Source: Candidatus Hydrogenedentota bacterium (GTDB lineage Bacteria; UBA8481; J006). From it: a stretch of 23,269 nucleotides of DNA. The notes below the pieces were generated by a model. That model was given only the letters and a program-made list of their open reading frames with translations. It did not search any database and was not told where the DNA came from. The first letter of the stretch is position 1; each line of letters opens with the position of its first letter. A program made the translations under genes and the position numbers. Shown here one piece after another: positions 3,172 through 17,157 of the stretch. Where the stretch lies: NCBI GenBank assembly GCA_003697085.1, contig RFFU01000019.1:1-23269 (forward strand), read 5' to 3'.

Positions 3172-4952
3172 TCGAGGGCCTGAAGCGGCTGGAGTATCGC
3201 GGTTATGATTCAGCCGGTTTGGCGCTTTACGACGACGAGCGTCTTTGGGTCCGGAAGACGACCGGGAAGATCCGCGATCTGGAGAAGAAATTGGAGGCGG
3301 AAGCGGTTCCGAGGAGCCGGCTGGGAATCGCGCACACTCGTTGGGCGACGCATGGGGCTCCCAACGATCAAAACGCTCATCCCCATCTCGATGAATCCGG
3401 TTCGATCGCGGTGGTCCACAACGGCATTATCGAGAACCACGCGGCGCTGCGCGCGTTGCTGGAGAAGGAAGGGCACGAATTCGAAAGCGAGACGGACACC
3501 GAGGTTCTGGTTCATCTGATCGAGAAGTTCCGTCGCGCGAACGATCTGCCGGCGGCTTTGCGGAAGGCCCTGGGGATGCTTCACGGAACCTACGGAATCA
3601 TCGTGATCGATCGCGGGGATCCCGACGTTCTGGTCGCCGCGCGGCACGGGTCACCGCTGGTTTTAGGCATCGGGGAGAACGAATACTTCGTCTCCTCGGA
3701 TGTCGCACCGCTCGTTCCTCACACGCGGAACGTCATCTACTTTGATGACAACGAGATGGTGGTGGTGCGGAGAGACGGTTATCGAACGATGACATTGGAT
3801 GCACGGCCGGTGAACAAGGCGATCGCCGAGGTGGATTGGGAGATCGAGGAGATCGAGAAGGGCGGGTTTCCGCATTTCATGTTGAAGGAGATTCACGAGC
3901 AGCCGGAGACGATCGCGAACGCGATGCGGGGAAGGATGCTGATCGCGGAGGGAACCTCGCGGCTCCAAGGCCTCAATCTCAACCTCGACAGTCTGCGGAA
4001 GATCGACCGCGTGATCCTGACGGCGTGCGGGACTTCGTGGCACGCCGCGCTCGTGGGGGAATACTTGATCGAGGACCTGGCGCGGATACCGGTGGAGGTC
4101 GAGTATGCGAGCGAGTTTCGGTATCGGAACCCGATCCTGGATGAATCGACGGTCGTTTTCTTGATCAGCCAGTCGGGCGAGACGGCGGATACGCTGGCGG
4201 CGTTGCGTGAGGCGAAGGCGAAGGGAGCCTTGCCGCTGGGGATCGTGAACGTCGTCGGTTCGACGATTGCGCGCGAGTCGGCCGGAGGCGTGTACATTCA
4301 TGCCGGTCCGGAGATCGGCGTCGCCTCGACGAAGGCCTTCACCGCTCAGGTGACGGTGTTGGCGTTGATCGCCCTTCTGATGGGACGTCAGCGCGATCTG
4401 AGCGTGGCGGAGGGTAAGAAGATTCTGCGGGGGCTTTTGGAATTACCGGGGAAGGTGAAGCGGGTGTTGGCGAAGAACGACGTTATCGAAACAATCGCGG
4501 CGCAGTATGCCTCGGTCGGTAATTTTCTCTATCTGGGGCGCGGCATCAATTTTCCTGTGGCGCTCGAGGGTGCTTTGAAGATGAAGGAGATCAGTTACAT
4601 TCATGCCGAGGGGTATCCGGCGGCCGAGATGAAACATGGTCCGATTGCGCTGATCGACGAGGATATGCCGGTGGTCGTGATCGCGCTGCGCGATTCCGCC
4701 TATGAGAAGGTGCTTTCGAACATCCAAGAAGTACGTGCCCGTCACGGGCGCGTGATTGCGATCGCGACGGAAGGAGACACGGAGATTTCGAATCACGCTG
4801 ACCACGTCATCGAATTGCCGTCCATTCATCCGCTTTTGTCCCCGATCCTTGCGGTCGTGCCGCTGCAGTTATTGGCGTACCACGTGGCGGTCAAGCGGGG
4901 ATGTGACGTGGATCAACCGCGGAATCTGGCAAAGTCGGTCACGGTCGAATGA
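3117..4952 (+). CDS. glmS: glutamine--fructose-6-phosphate aminotransferase (isomerizing)
   Basis: Makes glucosamine-6-phosphate from fructose-6-phosphate and glutamine, the first step to UDP-GlcNAc for peptidoglycan and LPS. The N-terminal glutaminase domain starts MCGIFGYIG with nucleophile Cys2, followed by RWATHG and HNGIIEN. Two SIS sugar-isomerase domains follow, with CGTSWHAAL and SQSGET (351-356), then STKAFT and EMKHGP with catalytic His507. The C-terminus is [13 protein letters not shown]. The length of 611 residues is full. The ATG at 3117 is fixed by the required Cys2; the Shine-Dalgarno (CAGGGA) is moderate. No glmS ribozyme is recognisable upstream. The stop overlaps the rho start in ATGA. 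Confidence 0.98.
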   Translation: MCGIFGYIGPRFDTAEILIEGLKRLEYRGYDSAGLALYDDERLWVRKTTGKIRDLEKKLEAEAVPRSRLGIAHTRWATHGAPNDQNAHPHLDESGSIAVVHNGIIENHAALRALLEKEGHEFESETDTEVLVHLIEKFRRANDLPAALRKALGMLHGTYGIIVIDRGDPDVLVAARHGSPLVLGIGENEYFVSSDVAPLVPHTRNVIYFDDNEMVVVRRDGYRTMTLDARPVNKAIAEVDWEIEEIEKGGFPHFMLKEIHEQPETIANAMRGRMLIAEGTSRLQGLNLNLDSLRKIDRVILTACGTSWHAALVGEYLIEDLARIPVEVEYASEFRYRNPILDESTVVFLISQSGETADTLAALREAKAKGALPLGIVNVVGSTIARESAGGVYIHAGPEIGVASTKAFTAQVTVLALIALLMGRQRDLSVAEGKKILRGLLELPGKVKRVLAKNDVIETIAAQYASVGNFLYLGRGINFPVALEGALKMKEISYIHAEGYPAAEMKHGPIALIDEDMPVVVIALRDSAYEKVLSNIQEVRARHGRVIAIATEGDTEISNHADHVIELPSIHPLLSPILAVVPLQLLAYHVAVKRGCDVDQPRNLAKSVTVE

Positions 4953-12889: not shown

Positions 12890-12915
12890 GGAGGAGAGCG
12901 GGGATTCGCCCGCGG

Positions 12916-12990
12916 TGTCATTCCGAGGCGGGCGGCGCCCGACACCATACTTGTCATTCCGAGGAGGGCGACGCACGACGACGAATCCCC
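12916..12990 (+). repeat. two 36-bp-period copies of a TGTCATTCCGAGG repeat
   Basis: TGTCATTCCGAGG begins at 12916 and again at 12952. Both continue with a related GGGCGxCGCxCGAC stretch, and the second ends in gacgaatcccct. The words TGTCATTCCGAGG and GAATCCC are typical of a short interspersed repeat I know from many bacterial genomes. It carries no gene. The remainder of 12890-13181 shows nothing else I can assign. Confidence 0.6.
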
Positions 12991-13181
12991 TACGAGCACA
13001 TGATCAGCGCTGCGCAGGTTGGAGAACCCGCGCTCTCTTTCTACGCCTTGCTGGGCGAAAACCGCTCTCCAGGCCGTTTCTTTTGCTCCTGCGCGAAGCG
13101 GGTTCCACTGGTGAAGTCACATCCCCTCTTCGTCTCGTGCTCTTCTGTGGAAAAAATTTTGAAAAAAATCGGCTCGGGGGG

Positions 13182-13211
13182 TTGATTTTTGGAGGGCATT
13201 TGTTTTATAGA
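13182..13211 (+). promoter_or_regulatory. promoter of the candidate structured RNA
   Basis: TTGATT (13182-13187), an 18-base spacer and TATAGA (13206-13211) form a sigma-70-type promoter in an AT-richer patch of otherwise GC-rich DNA. Transcription would start near 13219. Confidence 0.55.
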
Positions 13212-13218
13212 ATAGATG

Positions 13219-13487
13219 TAGGTTTTCTGGCTGGGATCGGCCGGGAAAACGAAACCGCCCGCGCCGATCGGACGAAGTTTCAACGAAGAGGCCTTGGGTA
13301 AAGGGTTTTGAGGTTGGAACGGCAACGGAGTCGGCTCGGTGTCACGGCCAAGGGGTGGTGGACCTAATCCACCAAAAACGTTCGATGGACCGCGCCGGGC
13401 AGAGGGCTCCCGCAGAAGCACACGGCACGAAATCTTCTGTTTCGGTCGTGCCGGCCCGCCATCCGCGGCCTGTGGATGGCGGGTTTT
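13219..13487 (+). ncRNA. candidate structured non-coding RNA, about 270 nt, unassigned
   Basis: The segment has its own promoter and ends at a strong intrinsic terminator. It contains many perfect complementary segments: GTTTTC (13222-13227) with GAAAAC (13245-13250); GATCGGC (13235-13241) with GCCGATC (13263-13269); CCTTGG (13292-13297) with CCAAGG (13348-13353); GTTG/CAAC (13313-13316/13323-13326); TGGTGGA (13356-13362) with TCCACCA (13368-13374); CAGAAG (13413-13418) with CTTCTG (13434-13439); GGCACGA (13424-13430) with TCGTGCC (13446-13452). The last two interleave as an H-type pseudoknot, and the first two can do the same. Reading frames through it look non-coding. It does not match what I recall of tmRNA, RNase P RNA, SRP RNA, 6S RNA, T-box or common riboswitches. 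It is either a free-standing small RNA or a terminating leader of the MBL gene 180 bases downstream. Confidence 0.55.
13455..13487 (+). terminator. intrinsic terminator ending the candidate RNA
   Basis: CCCGCCATCC (13455-13464) and GGATGGCGGG (13474-13483) form a perfect 10-bp stem with a 9-base loop, followed at once by TTTT and then GCGTT. Confidence 0.75.
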
Positions 13488-13597
13488 GCGTTAACGAGGT
13501 GGAAAAAGAGAACCTTCCGTCCCGCGAGGATCACGAAATGAAATTCCAGACCGCAAAGACGCGAATCGCGTTGTTCTGTCACAGGAACGCGGAGAGA

Positions 13598-13642
13598 TTG
13601 ATCGGCCACCACGCGTTGCCCGCATACCATTTCGGCCGATCT
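13598..13642 (+). promoter_or_regulatory. 8-bp inverted repeat upstream of the MBL gene
   Basis: GATCGGCC and GGCCGATC flank about 26 bases just upstream of the MBL gene's Shine-Dalgarno. It could be an operator or an mRNA hairpin. GATCGGCC also occurs at 13235-13242 inside the candidate RNA. Apart from this, 13491-13667 shows no gene. Confidence 0.3.
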
Positions 13643-13667
13643 CAACGTCAACGATCGAGGAGGTCGT

Positions 13668-14708
13668 GTGAAGAGTAATAGGGAAGACCTCCGCGAAGGT
13701 CGATTCCCTCGGACGGAACAAATTACGTTCAAACGGCATGCCGACGAGAGCGATCACGGGTGCGCTTTTCTCCGCTTGTTTTCGCGGGTCCTTCTTGCGC
13801 TCCTTTTTCCGGCCTTATTCGGATCGACATCGGCGCCCGCGGCTTTCGGTGCGGAACATACGATCCCGTCCCCCGACGCCGACGTTGTCGAATCGAGACC
13901 GGAATCAGAAAGTGGTGTTCCTCTTCTCAACGTCTGGTTTCTCGACGTCAAAGAAGGAGCTGCGACCGTCGTCAAATTACCGGATGGAAAATGTCTCCTC
14001 GTGGACGGTGGACCGCCGGAGAAGGACGTCGTAGTGCCGTTCCTCGAAGAGACCGCCTGTACCACGCTTGCGGCGGTCGTTCTGACACATCCACACGACG
14101 ACCACGTGGGGGGCTTGACGCGCGTGATAAAAGAAATCAGCGTGGAACGTGTCTATGATCCCGCCGTTATGCACCCTACGAAAAGCTACGAGCGATTTTT
14201 GGAGGCGATCGAGGCGGACACGCGAATCGCGTATGGGAGTCCGGAACCGGAGGAAGTCTGGAGTTGGGACACCACGGTGGAAATTCAGGTTCTCAACAGT
14301 GGTTTTCCTCCCGGCTCAAAAGAACTCAATGATGCCTCGATCGTTCTCCGGATCCGCTTCGATTCAGCGACGGTCATGCTGACGGGGGATGCCGAGGAGA
14401 AGGCGGAGAGGGCGGTGATTCGGAGATTTTCGGGGCGCCTTCACTCCGATCTCTTGCAGGTCGCGCACCACGGTTCGCGCTCTTCGACCAGAAAGCAATT
14501 CTTGAACGAGGTCTCGCCGCGATTCGCGGTGATTTCCTGCGGCCGTGGCAACCCTTATGGTCATCCTCACGCGGAAGTGTTGAGGCGCTTGCGGGAGGCC
14601 GGCGTGAAAGTCTTCCGAACCGACGAGGACGGCACGATTCACGCCTGGACGAACGGCCGCGACTGGTTTTTCGAGAAGGAGAGATTGCGTTCCGTTTCGG
14701 TTCGTTAA
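13668..14708 (+). CDS. secreted metallo-beta-lactamase-fold protein, ComEC C-terminal-like
   Basis: 346 residues. After a polar N-region a hydrophobic stretch (FLRLFSRVLLALLFPALFG) with AFGA suggests export. The mature part is a single MBL domain of the type found at the end of ComEC/Rec2: LNVWFLDVKEGAATVVKLPD, LTHPHDDHVGG (His141, His143, Asp145, His146), LTGDAEE (Asp241), VAHHGSRSS (His267, His268) and GNPYGHPH. In ComEC this domain is linked to degradation of the non-transported DNA strand; the stand-alone form has no permease part. The start is GTG 13668, with AGGAGG four bases upstream. It lies between the candidate RNA and flgL. Nuclease activity is an inference from the family. Confidence 0.85.
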   Translation: MKSNREDLREGRFPRTEQITFKRHADESDHGCAFLRLFSRVLLALLFPALFGSTSAPAAFGAEHTIPSPDADVVESRPESESGVPLLNVWFLDVKEGAATVVKLPDGKCLLVDGGPPEKDVVVPFLEETACTTLAAVVLTHPHDDHVGGLTRVIKEISVERVYDPAVMHPTKSYERFLEAIEADTRIAYGSPEPEEVWSWDTTVEIQVLNSGFPPGSKELNDASIVLRIRFDSATVMLTGDAEEKAERAVIRRFSGRLHSDLLQVAHHGSRSSTRKQFLNEVSPRFAVISCGRGNPYGHPHAEVLRRLREAGVKVFRTDEDGTIHAWTNGRDWFFEKERLRSVSVR

Positions 14709-16654: not shown

Positions 16655-16728
16655 GGGGCGTTAGCTCAATTTGGTAGAGCGTCGGGCTTTTAACCCGCGG
16701 GTTCTGGGTTCGAGTCCCAGGCGCCCCA
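16655..16728 (+). tRNA. tRNA-Lys(UUU)
   Basis: A cloverleaf can be drawn: acceptor GGGGCGT/GCGCCCC (with one G-U), D-arm AGCTC...GAGC, anticodon loop CTTTTAA with anticodon TTT, T-arm CTGGG-TTCGAGT-CCCAG and discriminator A. The outermost anticodon-stem pair is mismatched. The CCA end is not encoded (AAA follows the discriminator). Confidence 0.95.
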
Positions 16729-16785
16729 AAATGAAAGCAAGTCTGGAAATATTTCCCGCAAGAGTTTTCTGCAAAGGAGCGGACC

Positions 16786-17157
16786 TTGAAGACTGTATAT
16801 GTGACATATTGTTCGGCACGAAAAAAGAACGATCAGGCCCCCCTGCCCGCCAGGGAACGTTATGTTTCACCTCGGATTCAGAGAATCGAACAAAAAGCGA
16901 AAGCATCGGGAGCAGATTTTCGTATTCTATCCGGTAAATTCGGGCTCTTGGCGCCGGATGAGAAAATTCCCTATTACGATAAAAAATTGTCGGAAGAAGA
17001 TCTTTCGAGGATGATCGAGGAGAGCGAAAAACGGTTGTGTGATTACCAACACATTACTTTCTGGGTTCATCCGGGAGACGACGTGGAATTGTATCAGAGA
17101 GTGATCGAGGAAGCGGCTCGGCGGAATCGTGCCGCTTTCGAAGTGCTCTATATCTGA
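16786..17157 (+). CDS. small DUF6884-like protein of unknown function
   Basis: 123 residues. The start is TTG 16786, with AAGGAG six bases upstream; no other start fits so well. The pattern xTYCSARKK, LPARERYVSPRIQRI, ADFRILSGKFGLLAPDEKIP and PYYDKKL resembles DUF6884-type proteins (CSxxK, PARxLYxS, ILSAxxGLxxP, YD). Their function is not established as far as I know. No signal peptide or membrane segment is visible, so it is probably cytoplasmic. It lies 57 bases downstream of tRNA-Lys, on the same strand. Its base composition is more AT-rich (many AAA and TAT codons) than neighbouring genes, so it may have been acquired by transfer near the tRNA. Family assignment is from memory of the motif pattern. 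Confidence 0.65.
   Translation: MKTVYVTYCSARKKNDQAPLPARERYVSPRIQRIEQKAKASGADFRILSGKFGLLAPDEKIPYYDKKLSEEDLSRMIEESEKRLCDYQHITFWVHPGDDVELYQRVIEEAARRNRAAFEVLYI

Follow-up and report, generated by a model that had tools for sequence, protein, structure and literature searches.

The window analyzed here is a 23,269-nt stretch of DNA from an uncultured bacterium. On its plus strand, an intergenic interval of ~270 bases (positions 13219-13490) separates the hisF operon from the next gene downstream and was assessed as a candidate structured non-coding RNA with inferred ends. BLASTN detected a single copy of it in its own genome. The downstream gene, on the same strand at 13668-14708, encodes a secreted metallo-β-lactamase-fold protein (Lactamase_B), is preceded by AGGAGG at 13658-13663 and could be regulated by the RNA. 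Coding potential was scored with a codon model trained on the genes of the window. Recognized genes scored +0.13 to +0.48 (a comEA-like ORF excluded), and no coding signal was found in the ORFs overlapping the RNA interval, all of which were negative. The negative ORFs include two frames, of 107 and 46 amino acids, that extend out of the RNA in the direction of the next gene. The proposal in the first-pass annotation that about 270 nt are without convincing coding was thus borne out.

Several further features were observed around the interval. A 46-codon ORF at 13538-13678, with GAGG upstream, overlaps the start of the metallo-β-lactamase gene in a placement resembling translational coupling; it is probably no gene because its codon score is negative. 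A perfect 8-bp hairpin, GATCGGCC/GGCCGATC, is located before the same gene at 13600-13641, and its left arm repeats the GATCGGCC of the RNA (13235-13242). On the 5' side of the RNA, the motif TGTCATTCCGAGG(A/C)GG occurs twice, at 12916-12931 and 12952-12967. With at most one mismatch it was found 93 times in the genome, compared with 0 occurrences of a reversed-pattern control, and is therefore an abundant dispersed repeat. Elsewhere in the window, a tRNA gene with a DUF6884 gene close behind (16655-17157) could mark the edge of a mobile element.

Signals for transcription were present at both ends of the interval. A σ70-like promoter, TTGATT-18-TATAGA, is predicted at 13182-13211 on the plus strand (TTGATT at 13182-13187, an 18-nt spacer and TATAGA at 13206-13211). 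A weight-matrix scan of both window strands with E. coli-like weights ranked it within the top 8 sites. Its match to the consensus is a modest 8 of 12 positions, and it was absent from a stricter promoter scan; it remains plausible, as had been proposed. At the other end, a putative intrinsic terminator at 13455-13487 consists of a perfect 10-bp stem (13455-13464/13474-13483), a 9-nt loop and TTTT. The stem had been reported correctly and makes a good terminator: it was the strongest hairpin plus T-run when both strands of the window were scanned. A stricter scan missed it because of the 9-nt loop and the run of only four T. The tmRNA of the same genome likewise has a strong hairpin followed by four T, and its tmRNA, 6S RNA and RNase P RNA genes all carry TATAAT upstream. 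σ70-type promoters and intrinsic terminators are therefore in use in this genome, although the −10 box of the candidate is weaker than those of these three genes. Judged by such sequence signals, the interval has what defines a stand-alone small RNA, namely a putative promoter and terminator of its own and no coding.

The same signals would also suit a terminating 5' leader, either an attenuator or riboswitch-like, of the metallo-β-lactamase-fold gene. In such an arrangement most transcripts would stop at 13487, and some condition would allow read-through into 13668-14708. The gene is the next one downstream on the same strand, and no promoter-like site was found in 13491-13700 (best weight-matrix score 5.0, versus 10.6 at 13182), so that it may depend on read-through. 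Such read-through could, however, come from upstream hisF, and the gap of ~180 nt between terminator and start codon is long for attenuation. A 9-bp alternative pairing between GGGTGGTGG (13353-13361) and CCGCCATCC (13456-13464) could disrupt the terminator, but it would have to open a stable hairpin, and pairings of this quality were reached by ~10% of shuffles. Similarly, RNA 13232-13243 pairs at 11 of 12 positions with 13633-13644, just before the gene, but this complementarity was equaled in 6 of 40 shuffles. The antiterminator and leader-pairing ideas are thus at chance level, and nothing specific supports a leader for this gene. We regard this main rival reading as rather unlikely.

The interval was compared with known RNA families by cmscan with permissive filters. 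No Rfam match was obtained at the gathering score or at E ≤ 5, in agreement with the first-pass annotation, in which the RNA could not be matched to a known bacterial class. The tmRNA family (RF00023), which resembles the candidate in size class and, if both proposed folds are counted, in having more than one pseudoknot, gave no match in the interval; the tmRNA gene of the genome lies at another locus (C37:11475-11835, 160 bits). The copies of 6S RNA (RF00013; C16:36035-36216), RNase P RNA (RF00010; C67:44277-44665) and large-type SRP RNA (RF01854; C120:12806-13073) are also located elsewhere. Type III toxin-antitoxin RNAs (ToxI) share the order of pseudoknot RNA, terminator and gene, but the candidate is free of tandem repeats and its neighbor encodes Lactamase_B, not a ToxN-type nuclease; a type III antitoxin RNA was therefore rejected. 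That the RNA belongs to a known family but has diverged too far for the Rfam models would be conceivable in a deep lineage with few genomes. Against it stand the permissive search with nothing at E ≤ 5 and the four RNAs of comparable size that are universal or widespread, all of which were found elsewhere in the genome with good scores. We consider such a divergent member very improbable.

Folding of 13219-13490 was more stable than expected by chance. The fold energy had a z score of −3.9 against 200 shuffles, one of which was as good, and of −2.9 against 60 shuffles. The intergenic flanks gave z scores of +0.8 (12890-13181) and +0.5 (13491-13667) and thus fold no better than chance, which limits the structure excess to the interval. 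In a scan of non-overlapping 120-nt blocks, the first block of the interval reached only z −1.9 (rank 12 of 193). The excess stems from the central hairpins, for which 13273-13412 by itself gave z −2.4, and from the terminator; the two pseudoknot segments contribute little to it in the nested fold. A long central hairpin at 13277-13320 on the plus strand, with the outer stem GTTTCAAC/GTTGGAAC and a second 8-bp stem inside, was present in the MFE, centroid and MEA folds. The second central domain, at 13334-13400 on the same strand, contains the hairpin GGTGGACCTAATCCACC and is stable when 13270-13400 is folded without its flanks. In the full-length fold the inner hairpin GGTGGACCTAATCCACC of this domain is retained, and the outer stem is paired otherwise.

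Two pseudoknot-like folds had been proposed within the interval. Every sequence element listed for them and for the remainder of the unit was found where it had been placed, and both sets of stems interleave in the H-type manner. Their energies were approximated by a crude Dirks-Pierce-type estimate, in which stacking energies were combined with an initiation penalty. At the 3' end (13413-13453, plus strand), stem 1 is CAGAAG/CTTCTG (13413-13418/13434-13439). Stem 2 was described as GGCACGA/TCGTGCC (13424-13430/13446-13452) and extends to the 8-bp CGGCACGA/TCGTGCCG (13423-13430/13446-13453). The H-type topology given for this element holds, but its loops are 4, 3 and 6 nt instead of 5, 3 and 6 nt once the 8-bp stem is counted. 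With an estimated −17.2 kcal/mol compared with −13.6 kcal/mol for the best nested fold, the 3' pseudoknot is credibly favored. At the 5' end (13222-13269, plus strand), GTTTTC (13222-13227) pairs with GAAAAC (13245-13250) and GATCGGC (13235-13241) with GCCGATC (13263-13269), leaving loops of 7, 3 and 12 nt. Here the pseudoknot was estimated at about −10.3 kcal/mol compared with −18.2 kcal/mol for the nested fold. The 5' pseudoknot is unsupported because the nested alternative is ~8 kcal/mol better, and a nested hairpin at 13235-13269 would more likely form in its place.

The chance expectation for such elements was determined with a rule for tight pseudoknots: both stems perfectly Watson-Crick paired and no shorter than 6 bp, with a minimum of 7 bp for one of them, and loops of at most 8, 6 and 15 nt. 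The rule was fitted to the finding, its criteria having been set after the pseudoknots were seen. In 1000 dinucleotide shuffles of 13219-13490, 1.1% contained at least one tight pseudoknot, compared with two in the native interval. Both fold stability and tight pseudoknots exceed shuffle expectation, in support of the structured interval originally annotated. Across the entire window, the plus strand contained four tight pseudoknots, at 3338, 10035, 13222 and 13413. As background, 1.23 Mb of unrelated bacterial DNA was searched, consisting of contigs with metallo-β-lactamase homologues from other lineages. It contained 101 tight pseudoknots, corresponding to 0.022 per 272 nt (~0.014 at a GC content near 0.6), and 3 places with two of them within 230 nt. 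From these rates, two in a 272-nt unit predefined by promoter and terminator are a ~1e-4 event. The probability of two somewhere in the 23-kb window, counting both strands, is ~0.1, and the pseudoknot excess thus shrinks to a modest one when the search covers the entire window.

This background bears on a further rival, in which there is no dedicated RNA at all. The interval would be a GC-rich intergenic stretch with pseudoknot pairs arising by chance; the terminator would end transcription from the upstream hisF operon, and the promoter would serve the metallo-β-lactamase gene or nothing. The roughly 1-in-10 frequency with which natural background yields two tight pseudoknots per 23-kb window on both strands, the energetically unfavorable 5' pseudoknot, the promoter with only 8 of 12 matches and the lack of conservation shown anywhere all agree with it. 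A chance stretch accounts poorly for a fold z score of −3.9 across the precise unit with flanks near zero. In addition, a terminator separated from hisF by ~570 nt that include a promoter-like site would be an odd end for the hisF operon. We judge a chance stretch to be unlikely.

Homologues of the candidate were sought in several sequence collections. BLASTN identified none in 60 genomes, and a single-sequence covariance model run over 386 genomes matched only the window itself. With laxer filters on two genomes of the same phylum, this model gave one chance match beyond the window (E 1.9). Plasmid and phage records contained no match to the candidate, and one exact hairpin pattern of the RNA was not found in viral contigs. 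The comparison set included one genome of the phylum besides that of the window. Its metallo-β-lactamase homologue (47% identity) begins at base 1 of a contig, so that the upstream region could not be read. The hisF of this relative lies elsewhere, beside RNase P RNA, with other sequence after it. In G001, a genome of the same order (L103 1501-1913, L009), the RNase P RNA gene ends ~25 bases before hisF; unlike this hisF-adjacent copy, the RNase P RNA of the window's genome is on another contig. A further 80 metallo-β-lactamase homologues have at most 40% identity and are all labeled as other lineages, which makes them useless for RNA alignment. In these searches the candidate was thus found in a single sequenced genome, and its folds and role are accordingly putative.

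Considering these results together, we tentatively prefer, at somewhat less than even confidence, an orphan stand-alone, intrinsically terminated small RNA of ~270 nt that would act in trans. Transcription would proceed rightwards from the promoter at 13182-13211 and end at the hairpin at 13455-13487. At the center of the RNA would be two stable hairpin domains, followed by a compact 3' pseudoknot. The latter adjoins the terminator stem at a distance of 1 nt and could stack on it, protecting the 3' end. From its anatomy we would guess that the RNA acts by base-pairing or by binding a protein. The novel small RNA first suggested for this locus thus retains its signals, its non-coding character and its excess structure but loses the 5' pseudoknot. 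The computed properties (sequence elements, excess folding stability, no coding and no known RNA family) make the candidate a plausible lead that was correctly read, not a demonstrated RNA class.

In its intergenic site, σ70-like promoter, intrinsic terminator and structured, non-coding sequence, the candidate resembles orphan intergenic small RNAs of bacteria, but it has no known relative and is a prediction from sequence. Computationally discovered candidate structured RNAs are also intergenic and structured, some with pseudoknots (PMC2864571, PMC8632094). They rest on aligned examples, whereas the candidate is one sequence. A bolder extension, which we consider quite unlikely, is that it represents a new class of ~270-nt structured RNAs, of which it would be the first known example. 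The 3' pseudoknot would then be functional and stack on the terminator, and the class would be restricted to an uncultured phylum that has been sparsely sampled. As one sequence without relatives, the candidate settles no open question. If real, it would contribute an unclassified structured RNA in a lineage that is hardly represented by genomes and offers little insight into RNA regulation, and its value would be as a search seed once sister genomes or transcriptomes appear.
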